This document shows positions 13,922-50,301 of a DNA stretch of 64,000 nucleotides, piece after piece (within the stretch, counting starts at the first letter, position 1; each line of letters starts with the position of its first letter). A model generated the notes under the pieces. That model was not told the DNA's origin, did no database searches, and worked only from the letters and a program-made list of their open reading frames with translations. This DNA is from Crossiella sp. SN42. Lineage in GTDB: Bacteria; Actinomycetota; Actinomycetes; Mycobacteriales; Pseudonocardiaceae. The translations under genes and the position numbers were made by a program. The stretch is from NCBI RefSeq assembly GCF_023897065.1, contig NZ_JAMHIV010000002.1, positions 310,001-374,000 on the forward strand, read 5' to 3'.

Positions 13922-14041
13922 GTGGCCAACCTGCCTTACACCCTCGCGCTGATCGGCGGCTTCGTCTTCCTCGCGCTGGCCGTCCGCGCGGTCCAGTGGC
14001 GCGTCACGGTCCGGCCAGCGCGGCGGCCACCGAACAGGTGA
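13922..14041 (+). CDS. Possible 39-residue single-pass membrane peptide
   Basis: GTG 13922 opens a 39-codon frame with a clean hydrophobic helix (LPYTLALIGGFVFLALAV) and a basic tail ending RPARRPPNR. It overlaps the end of the convergent C45-type gene by 38 bp. The helix-plus-basic-tail pattern resembles small bacterial membrane peptides, but no homologue is recognised and no strong ribosome site is seen. Confidence 0.3.
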   Translation: MANLPYTLALIGGFVFLALAVRAVQWRVTVRPARRPPNR

Positions 14042-15047
14042 AGCGCTTTCCGCTGCTGGGCACCACGGTCAGCTCCGCCGCGGCCAGGTCCACCACGCAG
14101 GTGGCCAGGGTGGCCGAGTCGCCCTCGGCAGGCTGACGGCAGACGCCGCGCGGGTGCGGGCTGGTCAGCACGTCCAGGAACCACTCCACATCCGGCTCGG
14201 CGGGCGGTTCAAGGGCGTCCAGGACCTTCGCCCGCTCGCGGCTGGACCGGGTGACCAGCTCGGGCAGGTCCAGGTGGCGCAGGTGGTTGGTGTGCCAGAG
14301 CGGGCCCTGGCCCGCCTCCTCGACCGCGCTCGACCCGGCCGCGGCCTCCACGTGCGCCACCCGGCCGGTGCGCAGCTCGGCCAGGTTGTAGGCGAACCCG
14401 CCGGCGGAGGGCAGCTCGGTGAGCAGCCGGACGGCCTCGTCCAGGTCCCGGGCCCGGTGCACCGCGCGGGCCACGAAGTGCCTGCCCGGCGCGATGGCCG
14501 GTTCGGTCACCGGCAGGTGGTCCAGGCCGAAGACCAGGCCGTGGCCGGTCAGGGTGAAGGCGTTGCTGGGCAGCATGCCCGGGTACCAGAGCGCGGTGAC
14601 CGGGACCTCGCCCGCGCAGTCCAGGGTGACCAGCAGCAGGCGGCCGGCCAGCTCGGCGCCGCCGTCCTCGTTGTGCGCGAACACCCGGCCCGGCCAGGCC
14701 AGGTCCGAACAGCCCGCGCTGCTCGCCTGCGCGGGCAGGTCGCCGCGCAGGTTGACCAGCAGCAGGGTCCGCTCGGACTGGTTCGCGCCCTGGGCCATCG
14801 CCGCGAGCTCGGCATATTCCTGAGCGTGGTTCACCCTGGTCAGCGCACTGATTCTGGACAGCCGGACCAGGCCGGTGTCGGTGCGGGCGTAGCGGTCCAG
14901 CGCGGGCCACTCCGGCAGCGAGTGCACCGCCTCGGCGATCTCGGCCCGGTACTCCTCGCCGAGCGCGCGGAAGACCTCCAGGCGGGGTCCGGTCAGCCCG
15001 GCCCAGCGCAGGCCGTCCAGCTCGCGGTGCGCGTGCGCCACGGACAT
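14004..15047 (-). CDS. C45-family (acyl-CoA:6-APA acyltransferase-like) Ntn hydrolase
   Basis: A 347-residue member of the peptidase C45/isopenicillin N acyltransferase-like family. In this family the precursor cuts itself before a cysteine in a G-C-[ST] motif. Here it is AGCSDLAW with Cys113, followed by the expected FAHNEDGG. Downstream segments include GHGLVFGLDHLP and ATCVVDLAAAELTV near the end. The substrate could be an acylated amino acid or peptide (carcinine-hydrolase-like enzymes share the fold). The ATG at 15047 is preceded by GGAGGGGAGAT, which fixes the start in a much longer open frame. Confidence 0.8.
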   Translation of the reverse strand: MSVAHAHRELDGLRWAGLTGPRLEVFRALGEEYRAEIAEAVHSLPEWPALDRYARTDTGLVRLSRISALTRVNHAQEYAELAAMAQGANQSERTLLLVNLRGDLPAQASSAGCSDLAWPGRVFAHNEDGGAELAGRLLLVTLDCAGEVPVTALWYPGMLPSNAFTLTGHGLVFGLDHLPVTEPAIAPGRHFVARAVHRARDLDEAVRLLTELPSAGGFAYNLAELRTGRVAHVEAAAGSSAVEEAGQGPLWHTNHLRHLDLPELVTRSSRERAKVLDALEPPAEPDVEWFLDVLTSPHPRGVCRQPAEGDSATLATCVVDLAAAELTVVPSSGKRFTCSVAAALAGP

Positions 15048-15125
15048 GGGATCTCCCCTCCTGCGTTTCAACATAGGGGGACGGGCGGAGGAGTGGGGAT
15101 CGGCGAAACGTGTGAGGATCTTCGC

Positions 15126-16634
15126 GTGTTCGGCATTGGGATCGATGACCAGGTATGCGACCGGCTGCGGACGGCTTTCCTGTCCGCGGACTACCACGCC
15201 GACGGCGTGCTCGAACTGCTCGGCCCGGCCGCGCACGCCGCGCTGGGCCGCGGTGAGCTGGAACCGGCCGCGCGCGCCTGCGCCGACGGCGGTGCGCTGG
15301 GCGCGCTGGTCCGGCTGTTCCTGCTGAACGAGCCGGTGCGGGAGAGCGAGGCCGCGGCGGCGCTGCGGCCGCTGCCGGTGGCCGAGGCGATCACCGCCGG
15401 AGTGCTGCGCGCTGACGGCGAGCAGGTGCGGGCCGCGCTGGACATCCGGCCCTACGGCGACGACCAGGGCTCCTGGTGGGTGATCTCCGACCTGGACTCC
15501 GAGGCCCTCGGCGGCCCGGTGCCCACTGACCACGTGCTCGGTGTCGGACACGCCTCGATCAGCCTGGCCAGGGCCACCGCGCGCCGCCCGGTCGGCACCC
15601 TGCTCGACCTGGGCACCGGCTGCGGGGTGCAGTCGCTGCACGCGAGCAGGCACGCCGAGCACGTCACCGCCACCGACCTCTCCGGCCGGGCGCTCGCGCT
15701 GGCCTCGGCCACCTTCCGGCTCAACCAGCTGGACGTGGAGCTGGCCCGCGGCGAGTGGTTCGCGCCGGTGGCCGGTCGACGGTTCCAACAGGTGGTGTGC
15801 AACCCGCCGTTCGTGGTCGGGCCGCCGAGGGTGGACTACGTCTACCGCGACTCCGGGCTGTCCGGGGACTCGGCCAGCGAGCTGGTCATCCGGCAGCTGC
15901 CCGCGCACCTGGCCGACGGCGGAGTGGGGCAGCTGCTCGCCTCCTGGCTGCACGTCAAGGGTCAGGACTGGGCCGAGCGGGTCGCCTCCTGGCTGCCCGG
16001 GACCGGGCTGGACGCCTGGGTGGTGCAGCGCGATGTGGCCGATCCGGCGCTCTACGTCGGCACCTGGCTGCGCGACGCCGGGGTGGACCCGCGCTCGCCG
16101 GAGGGCCGGGAGCAGGCGGGGCGCTGGCTGGACTGGTTCGCCGAGAACCAGGTCGAGGGCATCGGGTTCGGCTTCGTGACCCTGCGGCACACCCAGTCCG
16201 GGCCCGCCGACATCGTCTGCGAGGACCTGCGCCAGGCCTACGACGACCCGCTGGGCCCGGAGACCGCGGGCTGGCTGGACCGGGTGGCCTGGCTTCGTCA
16301 GCACAGCGCGGATGAGGACCTGCTCGCCGCCCGGCTCACCGTGCCGGCCGCGGTGCTGCTGGAAGAGGTGTCCAGCCCGGCCGAGGACGGCTGGACCTCG
16401 GTGGTGCGCCGCCTGCACCGCCAGGACGGGCCGGGCTGGCAGCACGACCTGGACGAGCTCGCCGCCGCGCTGCTGGCCGGCTGCCGGGGCCACCTGGACC
16501 TGGCCGACCTGCTCGGCCTGCTGGCCGCCGCGCACGACCTGCCGCCGCAGGTGCTGGCCATGGGCGCGCTGCCCGCGGTGCGCAACCTGATCCGGCACGG
16601 GATGCTGGTGCCCGCCGACTGGGTGGTCACGTGA
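15126..16634 (+). CDS. Class I SAM-dependent methyltransferase with NPPF motif
   Basis: A 502-residue protein. Residues about 1-120 are a helical N-terminal domain. Then comes a Rossmann methyltransferase core with motif [14 protein letters not shown] and motif [12 protein letters not shown], then a C-terminal extension. The NPPF/NPPY motif marks enzymes that methylate an amide or an exocyclic amine, such as HemK/PrmC and RsmC/D types. The target (protein glutamine or RNA base) is not settled by the sequence. GTG 15126 is the first plausible start; the frame opens far upstream only as a shadow. It overlaps dtd as GTGA, so the two genes are coupled. Confidence 0.82.
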
Positions 16635-35850: not shown

Positions 35851-36666
35851 ATGGCACAGAAGTCGTTCCAGGGAGACGTGATCCCTGGCAGGCACGTCGA
35901 CATCCGGCTGTGGACCAAGGCCGCCGAGGTCGAGGACCAGGCCATGCGTCAGCTGCAGAACATCGCGGCGCTGCCCTGGGTGTACAAGCACGTCGCCGTG
36001 ATGCCCGACGTCCACTACGGCAAGGGCGCCACGGTCGGCTCGGTGATCGCGATGCAGGGCGCGGTGTCCCCGGCCGCGGTCGGCGTGGACATCGGCTGCG
36101 GCATGACCGCGGTCCGCACCTCCTTGCGCGCCAACGACTTGCCGGATGACCTGCGCCGCCTGCGGTCCGGGATCGAGAAGGCGGTGCCGGTCGGTTTCGG
36201 CATGCACAAGGAAACCGCCTTCGGGAACAAGGACGCACAGGACTGGAAGCAGTTCTGGGCCGGTTTCGACAACCTCACCTCCGCGGTGCGCAACGAGACC
36301 GACCGGGCGCTGCGCCAGATGGGCACCCTGGGCGGTGGCAACCACTTCCTGGAGGTCTGCCTCGACGAGGACGACCAGGTCTGGCTGATGCTGCACTCCG
36401 GTTCCCGGGGCATCGGGAACCTGTTGGCACAGCACCACATCGAGGTCGCCCGCGGCCTGGCGCACAACGCCGCGCTGCCCGACCCCGACCTGGCCGTGTT
36501 CATCGCGCAGACCCCGCAGATGGCCGCCTACCGGCACGACCTGTACTGGGCGCAGGACTACGCGCGCCGGAACCGGTCGGTGATGATGCGGCTGGCCTGC
36601 GAGGTGCTGCGCAAGCAGTTCCCCCAGGCGAAGTTCGAGGAGCCGATCTCCTGCCACCACAACTAG
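35851..36666 (+). pseudogene. rtcB: RNA-splicing ligase RtcB, 5' part interrupted by the prophage
   Basis: 271 codons of a clear RtcB, against about 390-410 in complete proteins. The retained part has the metal ligands Asp80 and Cys83 (GVDIGCGM), GGGNHF with His165, LHSGSRGIGN with His182, and ends at ISCHHN before TAG. In intact RtcB this is followed by Tyr and a C-terminal third carrying the histidine that is guanylylated by GTP (His337 in E. coli), which is absent here. The coding match stops exactly where phage-like sequence and an integrase begin. The remainder is expected at the right end of the prophage, outside the window. As it stands the product should be inactive. Confidence 0.9.
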
Positions 36667-36748: not shown

Positions 36749-37972
36749 TCAGCCGGTCTTTCTGTCACTGGTTCCTTCAGCCGCTTTCAGCGGCTGCAAG
36801 TCTGGGGTTGTCCCAGATCCTGTCCCAAGCTCCGCGCCACCGGGCAGCACCCTCAGGGCCTGCGGATCTCCTGCTGCCGCAAGGAAAGCAGCCCGCTCGT
36901 CCTCGGTCTCCTGGACGTACTCGTTGGCCAGGTTGATGTCCTTCCAGCCAGCCATGCGCGCCAGCCGGAACGGGTTCAAGCCACCGGCCGCCAGCTTCGT
37001 GAACGCTCCGCGGCGAAGCCCGTAGCCGCCCATCGTGGCCAAGCCGAGCGCCTTCAGGGCGTTTCGGATGTGGTAGCCGAGCGTGCCTGGATCGAGGGGC
37101 CGGTCTCGCCGGGTGCGCAGCAGCACATCGCTTGGGCAGGGATTGCCGTCGGCATGCGGGATGCCGCATCCGCGGGTTGGGTCGCGACCGTCGAGTTGGC
37201 GGTCCACGATCTCCATTCCTTTGGAGGTAAGCCAGATCTTCCGCGTATCGTGATCCTTCGGCACTGGTTTAATCAGACGCTTTCGCCGGACCCTAACCTC
37301 TTCGACTTCGAGGTAACCTTCTTCACGATTCACGCGGTGAATGTGAAGCCCACACAGTTCACCTGGCCGCAGACCTGTCTCCATTCCCAAATCAATCGCA
37401 TCTTCGTAACCCTTGCTAATCTTCCCTTTGACCTTCTCCGCTCGCGAGACCGAAAGGTAGGCCTTCGGGCGCTTGCTGCGCTTTGGCAGGCCAACATCAA
37501 CGCACGGGGACGCGACAAGTATCGGCTCTTTAAGTGCCCGTTTAATTGAAACATTGAACACTGAGAAGATGCGGTGCACGTACCCCGGCGAGTACTTCGA
37601 ACTCAAGTCCTCGACCCAGTTGCGAACAGCAGCGTTGCTAATCTGATTAAGTGGGACCTCGCCCCAAACGGGGCGAATATGCCCCTCAACGATGTATCTT
37701 TCCGTGATGCTTGTGTCGGACGCGGACACTCTCTTCGGAGCCAACAGGTCCCACCAGACTCCCCACTTGGTGGTTGCCGGGAGCGTCCCCTGCACGCGCG
37801 CGGCTTGTTTTCGCGCCTTATCCTCCTCCGCGTTTGCGTACCGCTTGGCATCGCCTTCACGGTCGAAGTAGGGGGCTTTGCTGTTCTGCTTGTTCCCGGC
37901 GCTGTCGCGCCACACCGCGCGCCAGCGCCTCTTGCCGTTCTTGCCCGGCGTCATCTCTTCGACACTCGCCAC
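36749..37972 (-). CDS. int: Tyrosine integrase
   Basis: A 407-residue phage site-specific recombinase. The N-terminal arm-binding domain (about 10-60) is followed by a core-binding SAM-like domain (about 68-160) and a catalytic domain with Arg202 (TGLRPGELCGL), Arg320 (YGLRR), Trp343 (AGWKD) and nucleophile Tyr352 (NEYVQ). Box II normally reads HxxR; here the His is replaced by Tyr317. GTG 37972 has GGAGGGAGGAGA just upstream and was chosen for that reason. The gene is clearly lower in GC than its neighbours. It lies next to the rtcB break and should catalyse integration and, with an excisionase, excision. Confidence 0.9.
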   Translation of the reverse strand: MASVEEMTPGKNGKRRWRAVWRDSAGNKQNSKAPYFDREGDAKRYANAEEDKARKQAARVQGTLPATTKWGVWWDLLAPKRVSASDTSITERYIVEGHIRPVWGEVPLNQISNAAVRNWVEDLSSKYSPGYVHRIFSVFNVSIKRALKEPILVASPCVDVGLPKRSKRPKAYLSVSRAEKVKGKISKGYEDAIDLGMETGLRPGELCGLHIHRVNREEGYLEVEEVRVRRKRLIKPVPKDHDTRKIWLTSKGMEIVDRQLDGRDPTRGCGIPHADGNPCPSDVLLRTRRDRPLDPGTLGYHIRNALKALGLATMGGYGLRRGAFTKLAAGGLNPFRLARMAGWKDINLANEYVQETEDERAAFLAAAGDPQALRVLPGGAELGTGSGTTPDLQPLKAAEGTSDRKTG

Positions 37973-38016
37973 CTCTCCTCCCTCCTCTTCTGCACGGCCC
38001 ACACTGGCCGCGTGGC

Positions 38017-38400
38017 TTAATCCCCGGCCACCGAGTGCAGGTGACGCGGCGGGAAGCCCTGCTCGCGCATCGCTCGGTCGTAGGCGTTCGCGCGCGCCAA
38101 CTCGCGCGCGGCGTTGGCCACGTCCCGGCGCAGCTGAGCGTGACGCTCGGCGGCCCGCGCCTCGGCCTGCGCCGCTCGGCCGGCCGCTCGCGCCTCCCGT
38201 TCCCGCTCGCGGCGATCCGCAGCCGCACGATTCGTCGCGGCGAGCCACGCGCACCAAGCAACCACTGCGGCGAGGCCGACGACCATGGCCCCCAGCTTGG
38301 GTCCGGCCTGCATGGGGTGGACCGCGGCGTAGTAGGCGAGGGCGATGCACAGGCCTGATAGGACGAGGGCCGCACACAACACGGCTACCCGGAGTGACAT
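38017..38400 (-). CDS. Small membrane protein with coiled-coil tail
   Basis: A 127-residue protein with two transmembrane helices (about 5-26 and 36-55), then a long Ala/Arg/Glu-rich helix (58-105) likely to form a coiled coil. No family is recognised. It sits between the repressor and integrase genes on the same strand, so it is probably expressed in the lysogen. Genes in this position often affect immunity or superinfection exclusion, but that is only inferred from place. Confidence 0.6.
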   Translation of the reverse strand: MSLRVAVLCAALVLSGLCIALAYYAAVHPMQAGPKLGAMVVGLAAVVAWCAWLAATNRAAADRREREREARAAGRAAQAEARAAERHAQLRRDVANAARELARANAYDRAMREQGFPPRHLHSVAGD

Positions 38401-38530
38401 CCGTACCTCCCAGACGGCTGATCCTCCGCCGATCGGATGACGCTGATCGGCCTAGGCTGGGAGTCTGTGCTTCAGCTTCTTTAGAGTGCAACCGGTCACA
38501 CTGAACTGGGAGCACGTTCCCTCGTTCGGC

Positions 38531-48155: not shown

Positions 48156-48692
48156 ATGCGCCGCACCAGCACAACCCCCGTGGCCAGCACCACGCCGAGC
48201 AAGACGCACTACGCGACGCAGATGGTGCCGCTGGCCGCGCGCATCGTGGCCGCGGTGCACGACGACGGCCCCGACGAGCTGCGCGAGGCCCTCGGCCGCG
48301 CGCTGGCGGTGACCCCAGCCGCCGGGGTCGACCCCTACGTCACCCTGACGGTGATCCTGGCCGCCATGGTCGACCCGGCCCGCAGCCCGCAGCAGCTGCT
48401 GGCCTGGACCGGCCCGCTCGGCGGTGTCGACGCGGTCACCCCGCCCCCACCGTCCACTGTGGACATTGGAGCGGATCGCGCCCGGCTGGACCCACGCGTC
48501 GTCGAGTTCTGCGTGGACGGCCTGATTCCGGCCTCCCGGCTGCGCCCGCGTGAACGGGCTGAGGCGGTGCGCATCCTCAGCGAACGCGGCTTCCAGGTGC
48601 CCGAGATCGCCGGGAAGCTCGGCGTCACCATCCGGACGGTCCAGCGCCTGCGCGCGGCCGCCAGGCAGCAGAACGGCTCGGTGGCCGCGTGA
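48156..48692 (+). CDS. Phage helix-turn-helix protein
   Basis: 178 residues. A helical first half is followed by a Pro-rich linker (PPPPSTVD) and a C-terminal helix-turn-helix (about 140-170; GFQVPEIAGKLGVTIRTVQR). It probably binds DNA as an early regulator or works with the replication genes that follow. ATG 48156 has GGAAGGAGG upstream, a strong ribosome site after the hairpin. It overlaps the initiator gene as GTGA. Confidence 0.7.
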   Translation: MRRTSTTPVASTTPSKTHYATQMVPLAARIVAAVHDDGPDELREALGRALAVTPAAGVDPYVTLTVILAAMVDPARSPQQLLAWTGPLGGVDAVTPPPPSTVDIGADRARLDPRVVEFCVDGLIPASRLRPRERAEAVRILSERGFQVPEIAGKLGVTIRTVQRLRAAARQQNGSVAA

Positions 48693-49651
48693 CCCGCGTG
48701 TCCGTCTTCGCCCCGGTTCGCTGGGCCAAGACGGTCCCGCCGATCCTGCGCAGCGACGGGCAGCCGGACCAGACCGCGCACTACGTCCTACTCGCGCTGG
48801 CGACGTGGGCCAACGCCGACGGCACCGGCGCGCGCCCCAGCGTGCGCCAGCTGGCCCAGGCCACCTACAGCGACACCACCACCGTCGAGCGCGCCCTCGA
48901 CCGCATCCAGGCCGCCGGGCTGATCTCCAAGACCTGCGACCTCAACGGCACCTCGGTGTGGACGCTGCACCTGACCGTCGTCCACGACGGACCGACGATC
49001 ACCGACCGGCGGATCGAGCGGCGGCGTGCGACCGATGCTGAGCGGCAACGGCGACGGCGTGCCCGGCGCGCCGGGCAGGTGGGCCGTCACGCAGTGGGAG
49101 AGCGTGACGTCACGCCCTCGGACACCGTGACAGCACCTGTGGATAACCCTGTGGACAACCCCGATGTCACGCAGTCCCACACCGTGACCTACCCGGTAGG
49201 TCACGGTGTCCCGCCCCGTGACGTCACGGGGTCCGACACCGTGACGTCACGCACCCAGGACCGTGACACCCGCAGGTCAGAGGTGGTGTACCAGCCATTA
49301 CTAACCAGCCATCTTAACCAGCCAATAACCCTCTCCCCCGACGCTGCGCGCCGGGAGGACTTCGACGAATTCTGGTCGATCTACCCCCGCAAGGTCGGCA
49401 AGACCGCCGCACGGAAGGCCTGGGATCGAGCACTCCGGGACGCCACCCCCGAGGCGATCCTCACCGGCGCCGCCCGCTTCGCCGCCCAGCGCGCCGGGCA
49501 GGACCCGAAGTTCACCCCCCACCCGGCCACGTGGCTCAACGCCGGGCGCTGGGACGACGAGGACACCCCCGGCCTGCGCGCGGTTTCCGGCGGCTACCGG
49601 CCCTGGGCCAACCCGGCCAACCACGACGCCTACGACGAGGAGCTGCTGTGA
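48689..49651 (+). CDS. Phage replication initiator (O-like), carries the origin
   Basis: 320 residues in three parts. About 20-95 is a winged helix-turn-helix (SVRQLAQATYSDTTTVERAL). About 110-210 is a low-complexity linker whose DNA is full of repeats. About 220-300 is a C-terminal domain (FDEFWSIYPRKVGKTAARKA) common in phage replication proteins and thought to contact the helicase or its loader. The layout matches lambda O-type initiators: binding domain, origin in the linker, helicase-contact domain. The DnaC-like loader follows directly. GTG 48689. Confidence 0.75.
   Translation: MTRVSVFAPVRWAKTVPPILRSDGQPDQTAHYVLLALATWANADGTGARPSVRQLAQATYSDTTTVERALDRIQAAGLISKTCDLNGTSVWTLHLTVVHDGPTITDRRIERRRATDAERQRRRRARRAGQVGRHAVGERDVTPSDTVTAPVDNPVDNPDVTQSHTVTYPVGHGVPPRDVTGSDTVTSRTQDRDTRRSEVVYQPLLTSHLNQPITLSPDAARREDFDEFWSIYPRKVGKTAARKAWDRALRDATPEAILTGAARFAAQRAGQDPKFTPHPATWLNAGRWDDEDTPGLRAVSGGYRPWANPANHDAYDEELL
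49081..49330. other. Putative phage replication origin inside the initiator gene
   Basis: The segment holds a 14-bp palindrome GCGTGACGTCACGC (49102-49115), a 31-bp perfect palindrome (49179-49209; arms ACACCGTGACCTACC), an 18-bp palindrome CCCCGTGACGTCACGGGG (49214-49231) and GTGACGTCAC again (49241-49250). CACCGTGAC or its complement recurs throughout. Two exact DnaA boxes lie side by side: TGTGGATAA (49138-49146) and TGTGGACAA (49150-49158). An AT-rich stretch follows with CCAGCCA three times (49291, 49305, 49318). Iterons, DnaA boxes and an AT-rich flank together are what an origin looks like. Confidence 0.75.
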
Positions 49652-50301
49652 ACACCCCCGCCACCCTCACTGAGCGGTTCCCCCACCTCGACCTGGACCC
49701 GGTCTGGATCGCCGAGAACATCGAGCGCGGTCGCGAGCGCATCACCAAGGTGCCCCCGCGCTACACCACAGCCGCCGCCACCGAGCCCACGGTGCAGGCC
49801 TGGGTCGCTGAACTGCTCGACCTGGCCGTCGAGCGCTCCCACGTCGGCTGTGTGTCGGTGCGCTCCGGGCCGTCCCTGCTGATCCTCGGCCCGACCGGCA
49901 CCGGCAAGACCTTCCAGGCCTACGGCGCGGTCCGCGCCCTGGCCATCTCCGGTGCGCAGTGCCCGTTCAAGTTCGCCACCGCGGCCGACCTCTACGCCGA
50001 ACTGCGGCCCCAGTCCCGTGTGGACACCGAACGGCTGTTTCAGCGGATCGCCGACGCGCGCCTGCTCGTCATCGACGACCTGGGGGCCGCCAAGGGGTCG
50101 GAGTGGACTGAGGAGATCAACTACCGGTTGATCAACCACCGCTACGAGCACGAACTGCCGACCCTGATCACCAGCAACATCCCGGCCCGCGAGCTTGGGG
50201 CCGCGGTTGGCGAGCGGGTCGCCTCCCGGCTGGTGGAGATGTGCCGCCGGGTCACCCTCCGCGGCGAAGACCGCCGCCGGGCCGCGGCGGCCCAGTCGTG
50301 A
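49648..50301 (+). CDS. DnaC-like helicase-loader ATPase
   Basis: 217 residues of the IstB/DnaC AAA+ group. Walker A is LGPTGTGKT, Walker B LLVIDDLGAAKGSEW, sensor I LITSNIPARE, with an arginine finger region VASRLVEMCRRV. It should load the host replicative helicase at the origin bound by the upstream initiator. GTG 49648 overlaps the initiator stop. Confidence 0.9.
   Translation: MNTPATLTERFPHLDLDPVWIAENIERGRERITKVPPRYTTAAATEPTVQAWVAELLDLAVERSHVGCVSVRSGPSLLILGPTGTGKTFQAYGAVRALAISGAQCPFKFATAADLYAELRPQSRVDTERLFQRIADARLLVIDDLGAAKGSEWTEEINYRLINHRYEHELPTLITSNIPARELGAAVGERVASRLVEMCRRVTLRGEDRRRAAAAQS

Follow-up and report, generated by a model that had tools for sequence, protein, structure and literature searches.

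A probable prophage replication origin within the coding sequence of its own initiator in Crossiella sp. SN42

Why should the DNA that codes for the low-complexity middle of a phage initiator protein be packed with palindromes, and where does the prophage carrying it begin to replicate? The question is raised by a gene of the actinobacterium Crossiella sp. SN42, situated in a 64,000-nucleotide stretch (contig NZ_JAMHIV010000002.1, positions 310,001 to 374,000 of the forward strand) that was analysed as a whole, is here called the window and supplies all coordinates below. A preliminary description of this DNA had proposed a replication origin embedded in the gene, and the proposal is sustained by DNA repeats in several reading frames, a like layout in relatives, an unstable array and a helicase-loading gene downstream. 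With a probability of roughly 85%, judged from sequence comparison, the locus is the prophage's replication origin, lying inside the coding sequence of its own initiator and most likely lambda-like in position and iteron-plasmid-like in content.

The linker-coding DNA contains six palindromic units of the form GTCACG-N11-CGTGAC, each of 23 bp except that the last has an N10 spacer. CGTGAC occurs 47 times in the window, counting both strands, and 12 of these copies crowd into 182 bp (49086-49267), where they pair as half-sites into the six units; the 64 kb contain no other pair with a spacer of 9 to 13. The units, which fall in the linker between the two domains of the initiator at residues 133-193, are as follows.

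49086-49108: iteron unit 1, GTCACG-N11-CGTGAC, frame 1
49109-49131: iteron unit 2, frame 0, abutting unit 1, with the joint CGTGACGTCACG at 49103-49114
49166-49188: iteron unit 3, frame 0
49200-49222: iteron unit 4, frame 1
49223-49245: iteron unit 5, frame 0, abutting unit 4
49246-49267: iteron unit 6, N10 spacer, frame 2, abutting unit 5

The dense set of palindromes that had been described is present, but not with GTGACGTCAC as its unit: that palindrome was rejected as the repeat, being found only at the joints of abutting 23-bp palindromes, which are the actual units. The joint sequence CGTGACGTCACG has three copies, all exact, all in the linker array and each lying between two abutting units; its count alone is weak evidence because, with one mismatch allowed, 0.65 copies are expected and three are reached in 3 of 100 dinucleotide shuffles. 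The whole 9.72-Mb genome has six exact N11 units, five of them in the initiator gene, and none in the reversed control.

The linker is repetitive in protein as well (TVT, VDNP) and predicted to be disordered, as the claim of a low-complexity linker had it, and the repeats might conceivably stem from selection on the peptide and not on the DNA. This is scarcely credible. One DNA unit is read in three frames (1, 0, 0, 1, 0 and 2 for units 1 to 6) and encodes different peptides, and when synonymous codons were shuffled with the protein held fixed (5000 trials) the mean was 0.153 units, with a maximum of 3, against the six observed; for half-sites the mean was 3.8 and the maximum 9, against 12. 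The same figures bear out the suggestion that the coding linker is shaped by a DNA signal, and the predicted disorder of the peptide is proposed to follow from codons that this signal largely fixes.

Two further elements accompany the iterons: units 2 and 3 are separated by a pair of DnaA boxes, and an AT-rich stretch lies on the 3' side of the whole set.

49138-49146, minus strand: DnaA box TTATCCACA, exact match
49150-49158, minus strand: DnaA box TTGTCCACA, exact match
49285-49333, plus strand: proposed unwinding element, AT-rich and less stable than any other part of the gene, containing three ACCAGCCA repeats

The two adjacent exact boxes, with starts 12 bp apart, are as first described, and the pair fills the gap in the array. 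The box consensus is TTRTCCACA, and the window has one more exact box besides the pair, where 0.13 are expected in all; pairs in the same direction and 1-30 bp apart number 14 in the genome, the linker pair included, and none in the reversed control. The AT-rich flank with its threefold CCAGCCA is also there. The ACCAGCCA copies start at 49290, 49304 and 49317 (spacings 14 and 13) and occupy two reading frames; the stretch 49285-49328 is 55% AT, compared with 26% where the N- and C-terminal parts are encoded, and 49279-49328 ranks sixth in AT-richness among the 50-bp stretches of the window. Its stability, computed with nearest-neighbour energies, is the lowest in the gene and within the least stable 0.1-0.5% of the window's prophage part.

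The protein and its neighbour are consistent with a role in replication.

48689-49651, plus strand: initiator gene, GTG start, 320 amino acids, matched to PHROG_270 and modelled with AlphaFold2
residues ~28-93: winged helix, confidently predicted (AlphaFold2)
residues 104-133: long helix (AlphaFold2)
residues ~134-216: linker of ~80 residues, predicted disordered (AlphaFold2 block means 35-47 over 141-220)
residues 217-284: C-terminal helical domain, low to moderate confidence (AlphaFold2)
49648-50301, plus strand: DnaC-like helicase loader, phrog_50 (E 1.2e-38), its GTG overlapping the initiator stop by four bases

The initiator matches the replication initiation proteins of PHROG_270 at E 6.9e-33 and, more weakly, the O-like phrog_391 (E 8.5e-6); its model was built from ten sequences, with a mean predicted local distance difference test score (pLDDT) of 64. 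The loader's longer open reading frame (ORF) matches Pfam IstB at E 8.3e-14. Loader homologues accompany 14 of the 130 loci searched, or 11 distinct ones after near-identical loci are merged (L004, L005, L006, L009, L013, L014, L019, L058, L062, L097 and L116), many of the 130 being too short or of other kinds to score as loader-less. In phage Hum25 a DnaB-like helicase, not a loader, directly follows the initiator.

The palindromes could instead be operators through which the winged-helix protein or a phage repressor regulates the replication operon from within the gene, with replication starting elsewhere. Palindromic sites do suit a dimeric regulator, and the winged helix resembles those of MarR type: it matches Pfam MarR_2 below the Pfam cut-off, a fold search against the PDB returned only generic winged helices, weakly (none at E<0.001). 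A sequence search of solved structures gave 26 weak matches up to E 1, the best at 0.0056 and mostly helix-turn-helix regulators. An operator is nonetheless unlikely, as the sites lie ~400-580 bp into the gene, where the linker is encoded, and relatives have them in similar places, an unstable tandem array lies 3' of them, and the protein matches replication initiation families with a loader next to it.

The layout recurs in relatives. Whole-protein matches at E 1e-10 were found in 10 of 297 genomes of the host's family and winged-helix profile matches at the same threshold in 47 of them, the genome studied here being counted in both cases; class-wide, 7 of 394 genomes matched, again including this one, whether the search was made at E 1e-8 or E 1e-10. 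Another 24 loci, among them Streptomyces, Yinghuangia and Actinocorallia, came from scanning named genomes. The window's initiator protein had no match in the viral contigs, and that of a relative (L015) none in the plasmid collection. Removal of 24 near-duplicates from 74 initiator ORFs left 50, and a set of 58 genes was made by adding eight hand-picked phage genes, seven of which came from the first 60 of 155 records.

Among the 15 closest initiators, 6-nt inverted repeats with starts 17 apart (spacer 11) number 45, compared with 13.2 +/- 3.2 and a maximum of 19 in 40 shuffles. This distance is the top one among those tested, and 13, 15, 19 and 21 are likewise raised, as expected of longer palindromes. 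The arms are GTCACG in the window, L004, Streptomyces and Yinghuangia, GTAACG in L015 and L034, GTGACG in L008, GTCCGG in L011 and GTTCCG in L035; since arms vary among the closest relatives, it is size and spacer that are kept and the specificity bases that change. The preliminary description had suggested looking for the same repeats in related phages, and what recurs is their geometry in the same linker, often with other arms. A linker conserved without its repeats was not the pattern that emerged; the linkers of most of the closest relatives carry like palindromes. Among initiators, 38 of 50 have more 7-mer repeats than codon shuffles predict (z-score above 3); among flanking ORFs the figure is 13 of 128.

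A scan by DNA alone points the same way. One unit plus a joint, searched in 2.9 million viral contigs with no protein information, recovered 35 stretches, 21 of them in ORFs with this winged helix (19 at E < 1e-30, two at E < 1e-6). Half-sites were compared in 18 of the 19 strong genes, L116 being dropped as its pattern was not on the coding strand. Six half-sites outside the search pattern are all at identical offsets in nine of the 18, which are 68-83% identical pairwise, and occur singly in 11 to 17 of the 18. The window's array starts almost on the viral lattice (0, 17, 23, 40, 80 and 97 against 0, 17, 24, 41, 79 and 96) and departs from it in that the DnaA boxes (offsets 52 and 64) replace a single half-site at 57 and units 4-6 are added; gp71 of Streptomyces phage TurkishDelight has iterons as in the window. 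One near-duplicate was removed for this comparison of iteron positions in viral genes. Unit-to-unit spacings were assessed in a set of 19, from which L061 (nearly identical to L060), unit five of L081 and the distant second unit of L034 were excluded. They concentrate at a periodicity of 10.65 bp, with R 0.92, or of 11 bp, with R 0.89; the best value was reached in none of 5000 random sets, a statistic that is not independent because related phages remain in the set.

Palindromic elements occur inside coding sequences, and mobile ones might have spread through the linker with no part in replication. This is hardly to be believed of units of which five of the six exact genomic copies sit in one gene, whose half-site offsets are fixed over the nine viral genes and whose spacings step near 10.65-11 bp. 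A slightly better, still very improbable alternative is an mRNA structure controlling initiator translation, in which each unit could, by its sequence, make a 6-bp hairpin. A search of 48500-49900 against Rfam gave no match at gathering scores, however, and half-sites that have no partner are conserved as well (in 14 and 17 of the 18 viral genes).

The CCAGCCA repeats of the proposed origin are a variant of a wider tandem AACC array. ACCGT at steps of 10-13 bp (mostly 11) is present in 22 of the 58 genes, compared with 1.8 by codon shuffle (maximum 5 in 30 shuffles). The array pattern was picked after sequence inspection, and in its hand-tuned form, which has no null, it is found in 53 of the 58, in 51 of these at or past the start of the densest repeat window. 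The controlled version counts runs of AACC against codon shuffles: 28 of the 58 genes have runs of at least three copies (2.26 expected, maximum 7) and 13 have at least four (0.09, maximum 1). These long runs spread over two or three frames in 26 of 28 cases, a further point against selection on the peptide. Tandem pairs are carried by Arthrobacter phages, Streptomyces, members of the host family and proteobacterial loci such as Aromatoleum, and a triple GAACCGTC pattern searched in viral contigs fell inside initiator ORFs in 7 of 7 stretches, five of the seven contigs being apparently named Arthrobacter phages and Galaxy being among the pattern's source sequences. A Nitrospira locus (L079) has a GAACAATCAGT version of the array. 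Winged-helix genes with linker repeats and tandem copies of the AACC or GAACAATCAGT type were seen in proteobacteria and Nitrospira at L070, L072, L073, L074, L076 and L079, and the origin plan of these six genes is possibly the same as in the window, across phyla.

Exact TTRTCCACA boxes number 13 in the initiator genes, the window's two included, compared with 1.08 by codon shuffle (maximum 4), and in seven other box-bearing genes whose sequence was inspected they adjoin repeats. None of the 19 strong genes of the viral scan has one. A DnaA box beside GAACCGTC was tried as a signature and rejected (1 of 80 loci; at least 120 stretches matched). Elsewhere, the viral ORF L174:3-1016 encodes two DnaA boxes as PVDNPPVDNP and has, by eye, a helix-turn-helix-like stretch, unmatched by the winged-helix profile used, and four viral contigs (L151, L152, L154 and L157) carry three to four tandem TGTGGATAAC-type boxes at places outside genes of this initiator family.

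Several results weigh against the locus being an origin of this design, or against the reach of that design. DnaA boxes are found in just 10 of the 58 initiator genes, their excess is weak once one mismatch is allowed (23 against 15.5, shuffle maximum 21), and CGTGAC followed by two boxes, tried and rejected as a hybrid-origin signature, placed 0 of 46 viral stretches in such initiators. Three of the 15 closest relatives (L062, L006 and L037) are without the 23-bp unit; among the 18 middle initiators the peaks are at distances 11 (40, with 13.0 expected) and 9 (38, with 11.3 expected), among the 17 remotest the peak is at 13 (23, with 9.4 expected), and the 23-bp geometry is therefore confined to the closest group. 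As for 7-mers, 12 of the 50 initiators do not rise above z 3, with L006, L009, L023, L034 and L046 showing no excess (z below 1). In the window itself 17 of 50 ORFs, the initiator and probably shadow ORFs included, exceed z 3, and the initiator's z of 8.0 is the second highest, with one above it; since 16 other ORFs exceed codon shuffles, the 7-mer test alone is not specific. The commonest 7-mer in the initiator ORF, CCCGGCG, is no iteron, and 11 of the 35 stretches of the viral scan lie outside such genes, the remaining three being weak matches (2.6e-3 to 0.35). Among the 16 non-initiator window ORFs with repeat excess, some perhaps shadow ORFs, is 14007-16598.

If the locus is an origin, initiator dimers would use their winged helix to bind the six 23-bp palindromes and would wrap the DNA, while the two boxes in the array gap would be bound by host DnaA as a helper. 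The resulting complex would open the AT-rich ACCAGCCA array on the 3' side, and the initiator's C-terminal domain would recruit the DnaC-like loader from the next gene, which would place the host DnaB helicase. We infer initiator binding, DNA opening, loading and replication at the locus from the DNA elements, which are independent of the protein sequence and conserved in relatives. Help from host DnaA is plausibly an extra of this phage and some relatives, and no family rule, because boxes are enriched in initiator genes yet absent from most relatives; the host contribution first suggested is thus plausible here and does not hold in general.

A tentative extension is that many winged-helix phage initiators have a two-part linker origin, replicon-specific iterons plus a common AACC array, with DnaA boxes an optional third part. 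The specific half might consist of palindromic iterons whose arms vary by phage while spacer and spacing stay constant in the closest group. Conceivably, the common half is the AACC array with its ~11-bp steps, shared by actinobacterial, proteobacterial and Nitrospira elements and read by a conserved host or initiator function.

The surrounding element is marked as a prophage by its genes, which run from an integrase, placed as given below, through exonuclease, Erf, initiator, loader, RusA, terminase and portal genes to those for head morphogenesis and the major head protein.

36749-38515, minus strand: integrase

Homology to a same-species genome that lacks the element and has the empty site stops at 36665 and restarts at the contig-position equivalent of 77821, with the common core GCCACCACAACTA, which gives the element a length of ~41 kb. 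Within the prophage, 43025-44026 matches the queuine tRNA-ribosyltransferase phrog_1279 (E 5.9e-79); genes of this type can put 7-deazaguanine into phage DNA. A second winged-helix gene of the same genome (L002, G000:C34:96931-97170) has a linker with GGGGCAGCCACTGCCCC-type repeats and a GAACC pair, sharing the plan of the window's initiator with a different motif.

The proposed origin would be concrete, minimal and testable for a group of actinobacterial phages and prophages, and would account for odd repetitive linkers in genes annotated merely as helix-turn-helix. It offers a DNA signature by which such genes can be found from nucleotide sequence alone, and it points to a cassette uniting the position known from lambda with the contents of iteron plasmids.

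The likeness to the origin in lambda gene O, already drawn in the preliminary description, holds for the mid-gene iterons, the AT-rich 3' side and the loader next in line, and lambda O itself, taken as a positive control by the same method, yields the four iterons of its annotation, spread over three frames, with a z of 4.6. Unlike lambda, with its 18-19-bp ATCCC units, the locus has 23-bp units with GTCACG arms, two exact DnaA boxes within the array together with tandem AACC-type repeats, a long low-complexity linker (~80 residues) and a DnaC/IstB-like loader in place of P, which belongs to a different family. In the lambda origin, as summarised in the articles cited, iterons lie within O and an AT-rich region adjoins them; here, as in lambda and Stx phage origins, inverted-repeat iterons sit mid-gene in several frames, an AT-rich stretch follows on their 3' side and the helicase-loading gene comes next (PMC5043065; PMC7466680). 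RK2 oriV, in the portions of the source drawn on, combines iterons and DnaA boxes with four 13-mers in an unwinding element, one strand of which TrfA binds; the window is similar in its iterons with DnaA boxes beside them and repeats in the unwinding element, for which the 13-mers are a precedent (PMC4081077). Iteron plasmid origins have direct-repeat iterons, in contrast to the palindromic units found here inside the initiator gene. For extrachromosomal mycobacteriophages the RepA origin is thought to lie just upstream of or within repA, and the excerpted text of that study reports no repeated motifs in the regions it examined; the present protein, too, is an actinobacterial phage initiator with a helix-turn-helix, but repeats are present here (PMC7157519). 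The portions of the open-access full-text literature that were covered yielded no account of this origin type, and the motif strings led, judging by titles and abstract openings, to nothing on replication origins. The details of the origin look new, while its principle is known from phage lambda.
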